Part shown: positions 217-9,565 of the stretch, piece by piece
Position numbering within the stretch: position 1 is the stretch's first letter
Layout: each line of letters opens with the position of its first letter
Virus record (IMG/VR): IMGVR_UViG_3300041809_003454
Coordinates: 1-28,836 of that record
DNA: 28,836 nucleotides
Strand: one strand, 5' to 3'
Source: a virus
The notes under the pieces: generated by a model
The model's database searches: none
Told to the model about the DNA's origin: nothing
Seen by the model: only the letters and a program-made list of their open reading frames with translations
Position numbers and translations under genes: made by a program

Positions 217-718
217 GTGCTTCCTCGGTTTCGCCATCGCGCCGTTCAATTGCCTCTTTGAACCACGCGTCCACCTGTTCCATGTACTTGCCCGGAGGCT
301 CCGCCAGGGGCTTGACGCTATCGCTGGCGGGTGTAGAGTCTAGAGAGTCCTTTACAGGTTTCTCTCTGTGAGATTCCGACCCCTGCTCCATGTGAGTGGG
401 GGTTTTGTTTTGTCCGACGCCGTACCAGTCGGCCAGCTTTTGCGCCGCGTCCTTTTCCCGGCAGCCATCCATCAGCGCGACGAAGTTGATGACATCCCCG
501 CCCTTTTTGCCGCCGTTGTTCGCGTTGCAGGAGTCGGAGAAACAGCGCCAGTAGTTCCCGGCCAGAGTGATCGAGAAACTCTTGGAGTTGTCGCCCTGTT
601 TGTGGGTTGGCAGCGGACATGAGCACACGGCGTATTCGCCCTTGAACCGCAAGGGGATCTTGTACCGCGCGAGCACGTCCGTCAGTTTGATTTCCTTGAT
701 GCGCGCAAAGTCGAGCAT
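146..718 (-). CDS. Stand-alone CHC2 zinc-finger (DnaG-type primase N-terminal domain) protein
   Basis: The protein has 190 residues. Residues 32-75 carry a CHC2-type zinc-binding domain: C34-P with H39, a Lys-Ser-Phe segment at 46-48, then C59-F and C64, followed by a Gly-Gly-Asp at 73-75, the usual end of this domain in DnaG. In DnaG this module binds zinc and recognises the template. Here the TOPRIM catalytic core is absent. Residues 100-150 are polar linker and 150-190 a charged helix. The protein is therefore either a primase accessory factor or the first half of a split primase whose other half lies outside the window. It is transcribed leftward from a promoter at 748-775, divergently from the gene at 837. 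The zinc-domain call is firm; the function is inferred. Confidence 0.82.
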   Translation of the reverse strand: MLDFARIKEIKLTDVLARYKIPLRFKGEYAVCSCPLPTHKQGDNSKSFSITLAGNYWRCFSDSCNANNGGKKGGDVINFVALMDGCREKDAAQKLADWYGVGQNKTPTHMEQGSESHREKPVKDSLDSTPASDSVKPLAEPPGKYMEQVDAWFKEAIERRDGETEEALRKRLLNQIKKLLIESYRNGKRA

Positions 719-747
719 ATCGCCCTACCTTTCTTAGTGCCTCTTTA

Positions 748-775
748 AGCGTAGGCAATCGTCGCGATAATTCAA
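748..775 (-). promoter_or_regulatory. Predicted sigma70-type promoter for the CHC2 gene
   Basis: Reading leftward, TTGAAT (770-775) and TACGCT (748-753) are separated by exactly 16 bases. The predicted start lies about 25 bases upstream of the ATG at 718. A TGTGGATAG box lies just upstream (about 782-790). Confidence 0.45.
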
Positions 776-782
776 GGTCCGC

Positions 783-810
783 TATCCACACCCCATAACC
801 TAGCTATAAT
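783..810 (+). promoter_or_regulatory. Predicted promoter with perfect -10 for the gene at 837
   Basis: A perfect TATAAT lies at 805-810. Sixteen bases upstream is only TATCCA (783-788), which belongs to the recurrent CTATCCACACCCC box rather than to a normal -35. The intergenic stretch 719-836 thus holds divergent promoters and otherwise nothing recognisable. Confidence 0.4.
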
Positions 811-836
811 CCTCACGATGTGCTTAGGTTAAAGCA

Positions 837-1001
837 ATGGCAAATCTCCAGAGCTACATCAATAAGTACGGAAGGCGGGAGGGCAAGAAAAAGTACAACG
901 CATGGCACCGCGAATATCGGCAATTAAACATCGAGAAGATGCGCAAGTATTGGAGGACGTATCGCGCGGCCCGCAAGGCCGCTGAAATAGGGGCTAAATA
1001 G
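837..1001 (+). CDS. Small basic protein with YR-rich helical repeats, unknown function
   Basis: This 54-residue protein begins at ATG 837 and ends at TAG 999-1001. It is strongly basic and aromatic, with a recurring pattern of Lys/Arg followed by Tyr or Trp (KKYNAWHREYRQ, then MRKYWRTYRAAR). This pattern resembles the helical DNA-contacting linkers that precede zinc ribbons or HNH domains in many phage nucleases, but no catalytic domain follows. Nucleic-acid binding is an inference from charge and pattern. A perfect -10 box lies 27 bases upstream of the start, and no Shine-Dalgarno sequence is seen. Confidence 0.55.
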   Translation: MANLQSYINKYGRREGKKKYNAWHREYRQLNIEKMRKYWRTYRAARKAAEIGAK

Positions 1002-1027
1002 GGTTATAGAGTTATCCCCAGATTCGC

Positions 1028-1055
1028 TTGACGTGGGTTATAGCTTTGCTACTAT
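1028..1055 (+). promoter_or_regulatory. Strong predicted promoter upstream of the structured RNA leader
   Basis: TTGACG (1028-1033) and TACTAT (1050-1055) are separated by 16 bases. A TTATCCCCA box (1012-1020) lies 7 bases upstream of the -35. Transcription would begin near 1062, about 20 bases before the structured element at 1083-1197. Confidence 0.65.
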
Positions 1056-1082
1056 TAAGGGGCAGTAAGGATGGTTCGTTGA

Positions 1083-1197
1083 TGGGGAGGAAGTAGTAAA
1101 AGGGATTAACGAGTTAATTCCGAGAATGCAGAGAGAGTCAGGCAACGATTAATCCCTGTTGACCTTTCCTCTCGGAATAACTTCTGCTTTCTCCCCA
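1083..1197 (+). ncRNA. Structured leader RNA with a predicted pseudoknot (RNA element 1)
   Basis: Three long complementary pairings are visible. The closing stem pairs 1083-1096 with 1184-1197 (14 bp, two G-U). A second stem pairs 1111-1125 with 1170-1183 (14 bp, one bulged A at 1116) and stacks directly on the first, with no unpaired base between 1183 and 1184. A third helix pairs 1101-1109 with 1149-1157 (9 bp, AGGGATTAA with TTAATCCCT) and crosses the second stem, making an H-type pseudoknot. A competing local hairpin, GGGATTAAC-GA-GTTAATTCC (1102-1121), uses the same strands, so two mutually exclusive folds exist. No known riboswitch or ribozyme core was recognised. Its place between a promoter and a 45-codon gene suggests a cis-regulatory leader or a small RNA. 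Confidence 0.6.
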
Positions 1198-1213
1198 CCA
1201 GCGAGTCATCCAA

Positions 1214-1224
1214 AAAGGTCGAAC
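1214..1224 (+). promoter_or_regulatory. Leader element AAAGGTCG-AAC (copy 1)
   Basis: AAAGGTCGAAC lies between RNA element 1 and the start codon at 1248, 23 bases before the ATG. It is one of six copies in the window, and its function is unknown. Confidence 0.4.
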
Positions 1225-1247
1225 ATATAAACCATTACCTTAGAACC

Positions 1248-1385
1248 ATGAACGAATCGGAATTGATCGGCGACGAGATTTATTCGAATGGAATCTCAAA
1301 GCGCCGCGCACTCATCGAAGCGGTCCTCGGAGCATTGGCAATCGCCGCGTTCGTCGCATTCATGATCTGGTTCGCGTCACTGTAG
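1248..1385 (+). CDS. 45-residue single-pass membrane protein
   Basis: The frame runs from ATG 1248 to TAG 1383-1385. Residues 1-20 are polar and contain Lys18-Arg19-Arg20. Residues 21-44 form one continuous hydrophobic helix (ALIEAVLGALAIAAFVAFMI and beyond), giving an N-in, C-out topology by the positive-inside rule. No family is recognised. It lies directly between two structured RNA elements and has no Shine-Dalgarno sequence. Small early phage membrane peptides of this type often modulate host envelope functions, but nothing here fixes a role. Confidence 0.6.
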   Translation: MNESELIGDEIYSNGISKRRALIEAVLGALAIAAFVAFMIWFASL

Positions 1386-1399
1386 CGAAGAACGGTTGC

Positions 1400-1489
1400 A
1401 TTCGGGAGGGGGTTGGTTCGTCTAAACGAATAATGATGTATACCCCAATCAGCGAGAAGTCAGCAACGGTTCCTCGCACCCTCCCGAAT
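1400..1489 (+). ncRNA. Structured leader RNA (RNA element 2)
   Basis: A perfect 11-bp closing stem pairs 1400-1410 (ATTCGGGAGGG) with 1479-1489. Inside are a 6-bp stem (1411-1416 with 1445-1450, one G-U), a 5-bp hairpin with a CTAA loop (1417-1421 with 1426-1430) and a 5-bp hairpin (1452-1456 with 1473-1477). Element 1 and this one share GTCAG(G)CAACG in the terminal loop of the 3' helix (1137-1147 and 1459-1468), and both have closing stems that contain GGGAGG or GGGGAGG. A small alternative hairpin, CCCGA-ATA-TCGGG (1483-1495), would break the closing stem. It ends 29 bases before the next start codon. Confidence 0.55.
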
Positions 1490-1518
1490 ATCGGGAATAA
1501 ATCTAATCATCAATCACC

Positions 1519-1656
1519 ATGAGCAAAGAACAAATTATGGAGTTGCTCGCCGACGATCAGATGAAACATGGCGAGCCGCCGGACGAAGAGTTGTTGGATT
1601 CGATGTATGACGCATTGGTCGAAAGTGCGCCGAGAGAATATCAGATCGCACATTAA
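1519..1656 (+). CDS. 45-residue acidic protein, unknown
   Basis: The frame runs from ATG 1519 to TAA 1654-1656. The product is acidic, with Asp/Glu-rich helices (residues 2-12 and 21-36) and no Cys or hydrophobic segment. It could be a small inhibitor or DNA mimic, but this is only suggested by charge. It follows RNA element 2 and is separated by one base from the next gene, which points to translational coupling. There is no Shine-Dalgarno sequence, and the leader ATCATCAATCACC is unstructured. Confidence 0.55.
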   Translation: MSKEQIMELLADDQMKHGEPPDEELLDSMYDALVESAPREYQIAH

Positions 1657-1657
1657 G

Positions 1658-1867
1658 ATGACCCAGGACGAGATCATCGAAGCGAACAAGCGGAGTGCCC
1701 AAGACGCGGAGCACGATTGGGCAAAGGAAGAGCGCCGCGTGGAGGTTCGGACCGACGAGCAGTTCGGGTATGTGCCCGGACGACACATCGGGAATCCGGA
1801 GAATTATCCGGGGCAGGAATTGAACGAGATCGAACGGGAGAACGTCGAAGCCTCCCGAAATAAATAA
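1658..1867 (+). CDS. Small charged protein, unknown
   Basis: The product is 69 residues. The start at 1658 is chosen because it lies one base after the preceding stop codon. An upstream ATG at 1568 would overlap the previous gene and add 30 residues of unrelated composition. The N-terminal half is a charged helix (MTQDEIIEANKR onward); the C-terminal half is richer in Gly, Pro and Asn. No family is recognised. It lies 12 bases ahead of the coiled-coil gene and is probably co-transcribed with it. Confidence 0.6.
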   Translation: MTQDEIIEANKRSAQDAEHDWAKEERRVEVRTDEQFGYVPGRHIGNPENYPGQELNEIERENVEASRNK

Positions 1868-1879
1868 CAAATCACATTC

Positions 1880-2761
1880 GTGGAAAACATCACTGAGTTG
1901 GTCAAGTACAGCGTGACGGATGAAGCGCTTGCACAGTATCGCAAGGAGTTCCTTCCGCTCACGGTTAAGGGGTTGGACGATCAGGAGGGATACGAGAAGG
2001 TCAGGGAAGCGCGGCTCTTCATCAAGGGCGAGCGCGTGAACGTGGAGAAGAAGCGCGTCGAGCTGAAAGCACAGAGCCTCGAATATGGCCGCGCGGTAGA
2101 CGCGGAAGCCAAACGCATCACGACCGCAATTGAGGAGATCGAGGGCCACCTCATGGCAGAGCAGAAGAAGATCGACGACGAGAAAGCCCGCATCAAGTTC
2201 GAGAAGGAACAGCGGGAGAAACTCCCGGAGCGCATCGAAAAGCTTGTCGCCATCGGTGTTACCCAGGAAGCCGTCTCAGCCGATGAACTCTTGAAGCTGG
2301 ACGATGCGACATTCTTGGAACTTCTCAACCGGCTCACGGCAGAGAAGCTTGAGAAGCAGCGCATTGCACAGGAAGAAACGGAACGCGCACAGCGCGCCGA
2401 AGCGGAACGGATCGAGGCGGAGAAGAAGGCCATCGAGGACAAGCGGCTTGCCGAAGAGCGCGAGAAGCAACACCAGGCCGAAGTCGAGCAGGCCCGGAAG
2501 GAAGCCGCAGAGCAGGCAAGGATTCAGGCAGAGATCGACGCTAAGCGCAAGGAGGACGAGCGCATCGCAGCCGAGGCAGCGGCCAAAGCCGAAGCGGAAC
2601 GGATCGAGGCGGAACGCCCGGACAAGGAGAAACTCCACGTGTTCGCCGGCACCTTCAGGGCAATTACGTTCCCGGAGGTCACGAGCAAGAAAGCGCAGGC
2701 AAAGGTCGTACGGGTAAAGAAGCTCATCGACGAGATTGTGAGCGAATTGCAGGCAGCGTAG
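1880..2761 (+). CDS. Long coiled-coil protein, DUF1351-like architecture
   Basis: The 293-residue protein uses a GTG start at 1880. Residues 30-110 form helices with the pattern KVREARLFIKGERVNVEKKR, then residues 160-250 form an uninterrupted Ala/Glu/Lys/Arg coiled coil with several near-repeats of AEAERIEAE. Residues 251-293 form a separate, probably globular end. The layout resembles phage DUF1351-type proteins that sit beside recombination and SSB genes. That similarity is from memory of the pattern, not an alignment. Its position directly upstream of an SSB-like gene fits a replication or recombination accessory role. Confidence 0.75.
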   Translation: MENITELVKYSVTDEALAQYRKEFLPLTVKGLDDQEGYEKVREARLFIKGERVNVEKKRVELKAQSLEYGRAVDAEAKRITTAIEEIEGHLMAEQKKIDDEKARIKFEKEQREKLPERIEKLVAIGVTQEAVSADELLKLDDATFLELLNRLTAEKLEKQRIAQEETERAQRAEAERIEAEKKAIEDKRLAEEREKQHQAEVEQARKEAAEQARIQAEIDAKRKEDERIAAEAAAKAEAERIEAERPDKEKLHVFAGTFRAITFPEVTSKKAQAKVVRVKKLIDEIVSELQAA

Positions 2762-2815
2762 CCGGAGCGCATCGAACGCTTCGCATATAAACAAAATCAT
2801 TTCATTTACAAAAGC

Positions 2816-3328
2816 ATGACACTTGCAAAGCAGATCGCAGAGAAGGCGCGTGCGAATGGCGCGATAGCGGATAAGAACCAGTTCTTCAGCGTGACAGACA
2901 AGAAGAAGGTCAACGCCGGAGGAGGGCAGATGGTGGACGTGGAGGTTCCGAACGGTCAGCACCGGGTGAAGATCGTTTCGCAGAAGATCGGCAAGGGAAA
3001 GAGTTTCAACGGCACGGAGCAGGAGGAACTCCAGATGGTCATCTCGGACAACGGCGTGGAAAAGCAGTGGAACATGCCGCTCAAGAACGAGGATGGCAAT
3101 CTGTATTACCTCATCGAGGATTTGGAGGACATCGAGATCGGTGAGGAGTTCTTTGTCGAAGCGTTCAAGCTGAAGAACGGGAAGTATGGCAAGCGGATCA
3201 CAAAGGTCGCTGGGAAGGAATCGGGAGAAAGCATCCCGACCATACAACTCGATGAGCCAACTGGTGAAGAAGATCGTCCAGGATTGGACGAGGGAGCGGA
3301 TATTTCGGTCGAAGACATTCCGTTCTAG
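2816..3328 (+). CDS. Single-stranded DNA-binding-like protein with DIPF tail
   Basis: The protein has 170 residues, close to the usual SSB length. Residues 40-130 look like an all-beta core (alternating hydrophobic strands including VEVPNGQHRVKIV and EEFFVEAFKLKNGKYGKRI), consistent with an OB fold. Residues 145-170 form a low-complexity acidic tail that ends exactly in Glu-Asp-Ile-Pro-Phe. This is the SSB C-terminal tip that docks onto partner proteins such as RecO, PriA and exonuclease I. The OB fold itself is inferred; the tail is seen directly. The last 77 bases overlap the next gene in another frame. There is no Shine-Dalgarno, and the leader (about 2790-2815) is A-rich. Confidence 0.75.
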   Translation: MTLAKQIAEKARANGAIADKNQFFSVTDKKKVNAGGGQMVDVEVPNGQHRVKIVSQKIGKGKSFNGTEQEELQMVISDNGVEKQWNMPLKNEDGNLYYLIEDLEDIEIGEEFFVEAFKLKNGKYGKRITKVAGKESGESIPTIQLDEPTGEEDRPGLDEGADISVEDIPF

Positions 3329-3554
3329 CAAGGACGCGTCGGTCGTATACACGACGACGATCTACTGGGGCGGGACGATGAACAATCCGCACATTACGTG
3401 CACCTGCCCCACGTCCATCTTTCAGCATAAGGCGTGCCACCATGCCGATGAAATGTGGAACGAGTTGAGCAATTTCACGAAGAACGACGTTATTCACCAC
3501 GACGAGATAGTCGCAAAACCGTGGTATCGGGCACCAAAGCATTCAGATCAATAA
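3252..3554 (+). CDS. SWIM zinc-finger protein
   Basis: The frame encodes 100 residues from ATG 3252. The segment at about 53-67 reads CTCPTSIFQHKACHH, matching the CxC-x(n)-CxH signature of SWIM zinc fingers, which bind DNA or proteins. The preceding beta-strands (SVVYTTTIYW) are typical of the SWIM fold. The start lies inside the SSB-like gene, a 77-base overlap. An alternative ATG at 3378 would remove those strands and is less likely. The stop overlaps the ParB start in TAATG, so these two genes are probably translationally coupled. Confidence 0.65.
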   Translation: MSQLVKKIVQDWTRERIFRSKTFRSSKDASVVYTTTIYWGGTMNNPHITCTCPTSIFQHKACHHADEMWNELSNFTKNDVIHHDEIVAKPWYRAPKHSDQ

Positions 3555-7748: not shown

Positions 7749-8220
7749 CGATAAGCCGCTCAAACCACAGCATGAACTCTTTTGTCAGCTCTACGTGAAG
7801 AACGAAGAGCTTTTTGGTAATGGGACCCTGTCCTATGCAGAGGCATACAACTACAAGCTTGAAACGTTGTCACACGAAGAGACGCGCGACGAAGGAGGCG
7901 AATTGATTGAGCAAAGTGAATATACGAAAGCTTATAACGTATGCAGTGTGCAGGCTCATGCGCTCCTAAGAATGCCTAAGATTCAAGACCGAATTACCAT
8001 CCTGTTGAACGAGATGCTTAAAGACCATATTGTCGATGCGCAACTCGCAAAGGTCATTCTTCAAGACGAAAAGCTTGAGCCAAAAATCTCGGCGATCCGC
8101 GAGTACAACAAGATCCGGCAACGCATCACAGAAAAGGTTGATGTAACCTCCGGCGGTGAGCGAGTGACCGGCTTCCAACTCATCCCGCCCAATGGTAGTC
8201 CAGATAAAACCAACAGCTAA
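7741..8220 (+). CDS. terS: Terminase small subunit
   Basis: The protein has 159 residues. The N-terminal KPQHELFCQLYV segment followed by SYAEAYNY and a helix with AHALLRMPKIQDRITILLNE matches the DNA-binding HTH region of terminase small subunits, which recognise the packaging site. A helical oligomerisation region and a flexible tail follow. The gene lies immediately before, and overlaps by 29 bases, the large terminase, the usual arrangement. The family assignment rests on the characteristic N-terminal pattern and context. Confidence 0.82.
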   Translation: MADDKPLKPQHELFCQLYVKNEELFGNGTLSYAEAYNYKLETLSHEETRDEGGELIEQSEYTKAYNVCSVQAHALLRMPKIQDRITILLNEMLKDHIVDAQLAKVILQDEKLEPKISAIREYNKIRQRITEKVDVTSGGERVTGFQLIPPNGSPDKTNS

Positions 8221-9565
8221 ACAGTACATCGCATGGCAGTATTGGCTTGATTCCATTACGCGCTTCGTGTTTTTCGGGGGCGGCGCCGGCGGTGGAAAGT
8301 CTTGGCACATTTGCGAAAAGCGTTTGTACGAAGCCTACGCCTATCCAGGCATTCGCTCGTTCATCGGTCGTAAGGAACTCAAGCGCCTGATGCAGAGCAC
8401 GTTCATCACGTGGACGAAGGTATGCGCGTTCCACAATATCCCCAAAAGCGATTGGTGGCTCGATGGCAAGTACAACGTCATTCACTTCAAGAATGGCTCG
8501 ACCATTGATCTATTGGACCTTGATTATCAGCCATCAGATCCGGAGTTCCAGCGGTTCGGCTCGCTCGAATACACGAACGGCGACATCGAGGAAGCCGGCG
8601 AGATCCAATTCAAAGCATTCGACGTGCTCAAGTCGCGCGTCGGCAGGCATCGCAACGAAGAGTTCGGCCTGCTCCCGAAGATCGGCTTGACGGCAAACCC
8701 GGACAAGAATTGGCTCTATACGCTGTTCTACAAGCCGTGGAAGATTGGAACGCTGCCCAAACAATATGCATTCATCCAGGCGCTCTACGATGACAACCCG
8801 TTTACGCGGGAGATCTACGGTAAACAGCTCGCCGAGATCACGGACAAGGTCACGCGTCAAAGGCTCATGCAAGGAGTATGGGAGTACGAATCGACCGGCT
8901 CGCTGATGGATTATGACGCGCTTACCGATCTTGCCACGAACACCGTTGTTGAATCTCCGGACAAGTTCCTTGTCGTAGACGCGGCGCGATTCGGCGGCGA
9001 CCGCATCGTATTTACGTTCTGGAAGGGATTGCACAATTACAAGACGGTTATCAAAACGATGCAGGGTACGGACCGTACCGAGGAAGATATACGCCAGTTT
9101 GTCATCCAGGAAGCGATTCCTTATTCGCGCATTCTCGTGGATGAGGATGGTATCGGCGGCGGCATTGTTGACCACCTCAAGGGCATCAAGGGTTTCACTG
9201 CGAACCATCGGCCGTTCGATAATCCGGTCACGAAGCAGCCCGAGAATTTCGAAAGCCTCAAGGCCCAGTGCGCGTACAAGCTTGCCGAACTTGTGAACAG
9301 CCATCAACTCAAAGTCACGAATCCGAACGAATCGGAGGTCCAGGCGCTTATCGAGGAGCTTGAGCAGGTCAAGAGCAAGGACGGTGACAAGGACGGCAAG
9401 CGCAAGATCGAGCCAAAGGACGAGGTGAAGCGGACAATCGGCAGATCACCGGACTATGGCGACTGCTTCATCATGCGCATGTTCTTCGAACTTCAGAAAC
9501 CAATCGGCTTCATGCCTGCGCCAACGACCGGCCTCGTCAAGAATTTCCCCGGAATGCCGGGTTGA
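8192..9565 (+). CDS. terL: Terminase large subunit (packaging ATPase/nuclease)
   Basis: The protein has 457 residues. A Walker A loop, GGAGGGKS, lies at 30-37. A C-terminal RNase H-like nuclease domain has acidic motifs VVDAARFGGD (about 263-272), LVDEDGIGGG (about 314-323) and DYGDC near 430. This enzyme powers DNA translocation into the capsid and cuts concatemers. The ATPase domain is somewhat compact but all expected regions are present. It overlaps the small subunit, is followed by a promoter and then the portal gene. There is no Shine-Dalgarno; the start is inside terS, consistent with coupled translation. Confidence 0.95.
   Translation: MVVQIKPTAKQYIAWQYWLDSITRFVFFGGGAGGGKSWHICEKRLYEAYAYPGIRSFIGRKELKRLMQSTFITWTKVCAFHNIPKSDWWLDGKYNVIHFKNGSTIDLLDLDYQPSDPEFQRFGSLEYTNGDIEEAGEIQFKAFDVLKSRVGRHRNEEFGLLPKIGLTANPDKNWLYTLFYKPWKIGTLPKQYAFIQALYDDNPFTREIYGKQLAEITDKVTRQRLMQGVWEYESTGSLMDYDALTDLATNTVVESPDKFLVVDAARFGGDRIVFTFWKGLHNYKTVIKTMQGTDRTEEDIRQFVIQEAIPYSRILVDEDGIGGGIVDHLKGIKGFTANHRPFDNPVTKQPENFESLKAQCAYKLAELVNSHQLKVTNPNESEVQALIEELEQVKSKDGDKDGKRKIEPKDEVKRTIGRSPDYGDCFIMRMFFELQKPIGFMPAPTTGLVKNFPGMPG

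Follow-up and report, generated by a model that had tools for sequence, protein, structure and literature searches.

A predicted 5' leader stem with a variable head and a putative covarying RNA element at the stop codon of a phage miniprotein gene

Does the stretch that separates a predicted early promoter from the gene of a tiny membrane protein specify a new family of pseudoknotted RNA, as the first-pass annotation proposed for positions 1083-1197 of a phage sequence? We studied this locus in a window of 28,836 nucleotides (the whole stretch of DNA analysed, from a 28.8-kb virus record; its phage is called W here). On the plus strand it carries a sigma-70-like promoter (TTGACG-16-TACTAT, 1028-1055), the structured stretch (E1), a gene for a 45-aa miniprotein with a single hydrophobic segment at its extreme C-terminus (1248-1385), a second element (E2, 1390-1489) and a 45-aa ORF (1519-1656), at whose place several relatives have unrelated ORFs. 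A comparison at the DNA level with isolated phages found no close relative of W; its terminase is ~40% identical to those of Bacteroides and Flavobacterium phages, a similarity that points weakly to a host of the Bacteroidetes type. Scans of viral contigs gave 14 other phages with a readable start of the miniprotein operon. E1 occupies the same site in seven of them (L003, L005, L018, L054, L153, L157 and L162) and is absent from the other seven (L004, L148, L151, L154, L156, L180 and L185). Exact-pattern scans for further E1s returned mostly chance matches and yielded L018, L054 and L162; both matches to E1 patterns among genome contigs were discarded as chance. Upstream of the promoter, a 54-aa basic ORF (MANLQSYINKYGRREGKKKYNAWHREY..., 837-1001) is conserved in five phages and had no family match, and a gene on the minus strand (146-718), which relatives also conserve and which diverges from the early operon, encodes a 190-aa DnaG-type CHC2 zinc-finger protein without a recognised catalytic domain. 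In L157 an Rfam tRNA match barely over the threshold (30.2 bits; 9468-9520, minus strand) lies between the zinc-finger gene and E1.

In the window phage itself, every pairing that the first-pass annotation had described is present. The closing one (1083-1096 with 1184-1197) consists of 14 contiguous pairs, each with a pair probability of at least 0.98. The internal one, between strands 1111-1125 and 1170-1183, also has 14 pairs (1111-1116 with 1178-1183 and 1118-1125 with 1170-1177, A1117 being bulged), the crossing one (1101-1109 with 1149-1157) has nine contiguous pairs, and the competing hairpin at 1102-1121 exists as well, at -4.8 kcal/mol. The stretch 1083-1197 folds with a minimum free energy of -46.3 kcal/mol (z -5.25), a stability equalled by none of 200 shuffles, and the fold of the wider span 1069-1210 reached z -6.1. 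The closing stem turned out longer than first stated: past one A.C mismatch it gains 13 pairs, formed by the foot strands GGATGGTTCGTTG (1069-1081), conserved in homologues, and CAGCGAGTCATCC (1199-1211), and we therefore define E1 as 1069-1211. The foot includes at 1070-1081 a three-codon frame, AUG GUU CGU UGA, in W, L003, L018 and L153; the frame starts with GUG in L054 and L157, has no start codon in L162 and is probably a coincidence.

A consensus promoter scan gave one match against 1.4 expected by chance, which is unconvincing alone; a TTGACx-16-TATTGT-like box lies just 5' of E1 in L003, L018, L054, L153, L162 and L005. From the promoter at 1028-1055, which we take not to be of the Bacteroidetes type, we infer transcription with a start site near 1062, so that E1 is placed at the 5' end of the predicted mRNA. 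The proposal that a structured leader RNA lies between an early promoter and the gene of a tiny membrane protein is supported. The leader 3' of E1 (AAAAGGUCGAAC...AUG) is A-rich, without a well-placed Shine-Dalgarno sequence, and the motif AAAAGGTCGAAC (1213-1224) is conserved with or without E1. Such a leader resembles those of Bacteroidetes, in which unstructured start regions and an adenine at -3 matter for initiation (PMC6847099). Wherever it was measured in the homologues, the 3' foot of E1 lies 45-49 nt from the first start codon, also in cases with a different first gene. Relatives lacking E1 pass from the promoter or an upstream gene to a GGTCG motif and then to the start codon; three of them (L148, L154 and L185) have a 5-6-bp mini-hairpin with the loop AGGUCGA or GGGUCGA at the expected 5' end. 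Since in half of the relatives the same gene begins from such a bare or mini-hairpin leader, E1 appears to be dispensable. The sequence AGGTCGAAC or AGGTCGCAAC occurs 21-32 nt upstream of the start codons of four genes, early and structural (window positions 1216, 9619, 11698 and 14109); the window has no plus-strand match besides these four, and in relatives, too, the majority of matches have this placement. It is a possible initiation or leader signal.

Comparison among the seven homologues showed that they keep only the outer stem of E1 and its spacing to the first start codon. Of the three pairings from which an RNA family was proposed, then, the closing stem stood, while the internal 14-bp and the crossing 9-bp pairings are broken in the homologues. 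Counts on the six sequences that align without gaps showed that 93% of the cells of the stem pair and that 10 of 19 pairs are invariant; the variation is mostly of the G-U kind, with pairing preserved, and three pairs changed on both sides. The consensus of the foot is GGAUGGUUCGUUG/CAGCGARUCAUCC, and the pairs beyond it vary, partly with compensation. The stem of L157 is divergent yet still paired, and L005 has a stem of other sequence at the E1 site. The interior, 54-181 nt long, differs in every homologue in sequence, length and predicted fold, and its alignments are mostly near random, whereas the flanks are 55-86% identical. All eight E1s are nevertheless more stable than their shuffles (z -2.2 to -6.5). 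The variable arm of the L153 E1 (reverse complement of 9250-9383) contains a T-loop-like hairpin, GGG-TTCAACT-CCC.

These comparisons bear directly on the original reading, in which 1083-1197 is a pseudoknotted regulatory RNA whose three pairings form a single functional unit and may switch with the hairpin 1102-1121. When the E1 interior was searched for its best H-type pseudoknot, the window phage beat 300 of 300 shuffles; L003 and L018 show crossing pairs that are weaker but ordered alike, and the motif AGUCAG(G)CAACG is common to the E1 interior and to the b' hairpin of E2 (see below). In the seven homologues, however, the crossing helix is at chance level (the nearest being L018, with 28/300 shuffles), and a conserved pseudoknot in E1 heads was rejected by this shuffle test outside the window phage; the interiors, as said, do not align. 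Moreover, the crossing helix (~-10.3 kcal/mol) is about equal in strength to a competing nested inner hairpin (-9.8 kcal/mol), so that the pseudoknot has no advantage over the nested fold in nearest-neighbour energy. Pairing of the E1 head with the 5' flank or with the AAAAGGTCGAAC motif was suggestive in the window phage alone (p 0.076) and is not conserved. Because the crossing helix is significant in the window phage only, a pseudoknot family is unsupported for E1: the pseudoknot is a possibility in one phage and does not define a family, and we consider the unit as originally proposed unlikely.

The patchy occurrence of E1 among phages that share the miniprotein gene (present in W and absent from L185, present in L003 and absent from L004) would also suit a mobile or exchangeable cassette, in which the foot strands would be crossover points or the ends of repeats and RNA folding would be secondary. 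The sequence is GGGTAGTCA-GGTCGAAC in empty leaders and GGGGCAGTCA-GG...AAAA-GGTCGAA in filled ones, and the head is swapped between conserved edges. The differences between foot strands are, however, of the G-U-preserving kind, which suggests selection on RNA, and E1 always lies right after the promoter at a fixed distance from the start codon; nor was a second copy found in the contigs read. We regard exchange as the primary role of E1 as quite unlikely.

A stronger case for a conserved RNA comes from the other end of the miniprotein gene. The stretch 1400-1489, flagged earlier for comparison, belongs to a genuine new covarying RNA, E2, which adjoins the miniprotein stop codon in 14 phages, i.e., the window phage and 13 relatives; L156 is without it. 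The stop codon (1383-1385 in the window) is followed by a 9-10-nt strand b (GAACGGTTGC, 1390-1399), directly by the 5' strand of stem c (ATTCGGGAGGG, 1400-1410), then by b' (GCAACGGTTC, 1463-1472), which pairs with b around one central mismatch, and by c' (CCCTCCCGAAT, 1479-1489), which pairs with c. Between c and b' lie a variable arm (1411-1450), different in every homologue of the same subtype, and a hairpin that presents b' (1452-1477). In the L003 arm there is a T-loop-like hairpin, GCGG-TTCGAAT-CCGC (8130-8150). The helix b/b' takes the forms AAC-G-GUUGC/GCAAC-G-GUU (W, L003, L018 and L162), AAC-G-GAUGC/GCAUC-G-GUU (L154), AACC-C-GUGC/GCAC-A-GGUU (L148 and L054), AGACC-C-GCUC/GAGC-A-GGUCU (L005), AAAG-A-CUCUC/GAGAG-C-CUUU (L004, L153, L180 and L185), AAAG-G-UGGAC/GUCCA-G-CUUU (L151) and, unbroken, AAAGGCGCAC/GUGCGUCUUU (L157); the lone central mismatch recurs everywhere except in L157.

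In the E2 alignment A7, 92.8% of the cells are paired against 63.8% in shuffled alignments, and 16 of 19 pairs include a change on both sides (8/10 and 8/9 by helix). Covariation was 0.780 against 0.215 in shuffles, none of 500 reaching the observed value, and pairing dropped to 38-56% when partners were slid. Note that the strands were excised by hand before alignment, which biases the figures towards structure, a bias that the shuffle and slide controls limit and do not remove; the p values of b/b' in single sequences are just 0.002-0.12. Descriptor scans for b-c-b'-c' modules ranked E1 and E2 among the top plus-strand matches in the window and, beyond E2, gave only scattered matches in single phages. 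Crossing helices backed by covariation, one mark of an H-type pseudoknot family, are found in E2 and not in E1. By comparative sequence evidence, E2 is an undescribed, strongly covarying putative RNA fold fixed to the stop codon.

The position of E2 relative to the stop codon is nearly constant: stem c starts 8-11 nt past it in 13 of the 14 phages and 14 nt past it in the window phage. The miniproteins encoded upstream of E2 have 45-59 residues and are tail-anchored, with the hydrophobic segment at the very end; their stop codons are UAA or UAG only, and for the miniprotein of the window a family search gave no PHROG or Pfam match. In toeprints, a ribosome that holds a stop codon in the A site protects some ten nucleotides beyond it, a stretch that corresponds to strand b. 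Linker L1, from b to c, is zero in 12 of 14 phages, and L3, from b' to c', is zero in L151 and L157; with linkers so short the two helices probably alternate. By pseudoknot-free energies, b/b' is the best fold before c' is transcribed in 9 of 14 phages, and c/c' is better by 7-18 kcal/mol in all 14 once c' is made. As modelled, E2 is probably a translation-sensitive switch or a strained pseudoknot. E2 showed no visible sequestration of the next start codon and no U-tract after c', where the sequence is AUAUCGGGAAUAAA. Inspection for stop-codon readthrough or -1 frameshifting at E2 found no conserved extension product and no slippery site, and both were set aside. The ORFs downstream of E2 differ between phages, and those searched had no family match; a small conserved ORF with the motif RAGMCGACISEAMAE, also without a Pfam match, was seen near the position of 1519-1656 in L153, L018, L054, L151 and L154.

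From the pairings, their conservation or loss, their positions and their spacing, all directly observed, we infer two functions: insulation by E1, as a 5' leader with a sequence-indifferent head, and ribosome-driven switching by E2, anchored to the stop codon. We hold this reading tentatively, and it could well prove wrong. On this view an early phage mRNA would begin with E1 as its leader, a long hairpin in which the foot is conserved and the head changes freely. With the 5' end buried in its stable stem, E1 would insulate the mRNA, and it would keep the A-rich leader single-stranded for ribosomes independent of Shine-Dalgarno pairing. An insulating stem is proposed because four features fit it: the 5'-end position, selection on the foot, the lack of constraint on the head and the constant spacing from foot to start codon; a stable 5' stem alone does not prove insulation. 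E2 marks the opposite (3') edge of the miniprotein gene. A ribosome terminating on this gene would cover strand b and so restrict b/b' to times without a ribosome at this site, and c/c' would then be delayed or strained, which would make E2 a translation-sensitive switch or barrier at the 3' edge. A bolder version, possible and yet doubtful, would have E2 as a new class of ribosome-gated switch that reports how frequently the miniprotein is completed, each terminating ribosome opening b/b', which competes with the second helix, and E1 as a head-diversifying RNA, possibly escaping host recognition.

E2 could also belong to an attenuator of the MifM/SecM kind, in which ribosomes stalled on a tail-anchored arrest peptide remodel the RNA and turn on the next gene. 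Right behind a short membrane ORF there is indeed an RNA structure that would be opened by a ribosome on the stop codon, and SecM acts via such an intergenic stem-loop controlled by the ribosome (PMC7897499). The hydrophobic segment, however, is C-terminal and not N-terminal, the downstream gene is neither conserved nor recognisable as a secretion gene, and no sequestered downstream localisation gene was found, the start regions after E2 appearing open. Arrest is, in our judgement, very unlikely. Least probable of all is a processed free small RNA (a decoy, a sponge or a defence-evading RNA) with a head under diversifying selection, a role that the hypervariable head on a conserved stem and the T-loop-like hairpins of L153 E1 and L003 E2 would fit and against which stand a head with no conserved functional motif or recognised target and no evidence of processing.

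Neither element matched a known RNA class, as the first-pass annotation had surmised for 1083-1197: the window and the E1 and E2 of eight relatives had no Rfam 15 match at the gathering score, and a permissive threshold added only a chance match to a plant miRNA (E 4.6). A tRNA or tmRNA, suggested by the CCA after the E1 stem, was not found by ARAGORN in the window or in the E1 and E2 of relatives. An intrinsic terminator or attenuator, sought as a G+C-rich hairpin with a U-tract, had no plus-strand site in 600-3500. The antitoxin RNA of a type III toxin-antitoxin system, expected as short direct repeats in tandem, each a pseudoknot, ahead of an endoRNase gene, was rejected, as there was no tandem repeat and no toxin gene was recognised among the neighbours searched.

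Covariation support is rare for structured RNAs in phage mRNAs, and E2 supplies such evidence locked to a stop codon; it also makes one question cheaply testable, namely whether the terminating ribosome decides which helix forms. E1 presents a convincing fold in a single sequence, yet its relatives keep only the outer frame, which warns against RNA families drawn from one genome and hints at leaders for which shape matters rather than sequence.

Among known systems, E1 most resembles the stable 5'-terminal stem-loops that stabilise bacterial and phage mRNAs: judged from sequence and predicted fold, it has a long stem within ~10 nt of the predicted 5' end and, after the stem, an unstructured site where ribosomes can land, and differs in joining a conserved foot to a hypervariable head. 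For E2, trp-type transcription attenuators combine a leader ORF with four segments that allow two mutually exclusive pairings. E2 likewise follows an ORF with four segments and two competing pairings, but has no U-tract terminator past c'. The leader of T4 gene 32 is another precedent for a pseudoknot in a phage mRNA; the present case differs in having no known repressor protein, and E2 lies at the 3' edge of its gene with near-zero linkers. By analogy, SecM and MifM would be the nearest functional models for E2, with a short membrane-directed ORF, an RNA structure that touches its stop codon and one helix that cannot form while a ribosome occupies the site; E2 departs from them in its two crossing helices, its variable downstream gene, the C-terminal hydrophobic segment and the lack of visible Shine-Dalgarno sequestration. 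In our assessment E1 is a leader of an ordinary kind, unusual in its hypervariable head, whereas E2 is a candidate new variant of ribosome-responsive mRNA structure.
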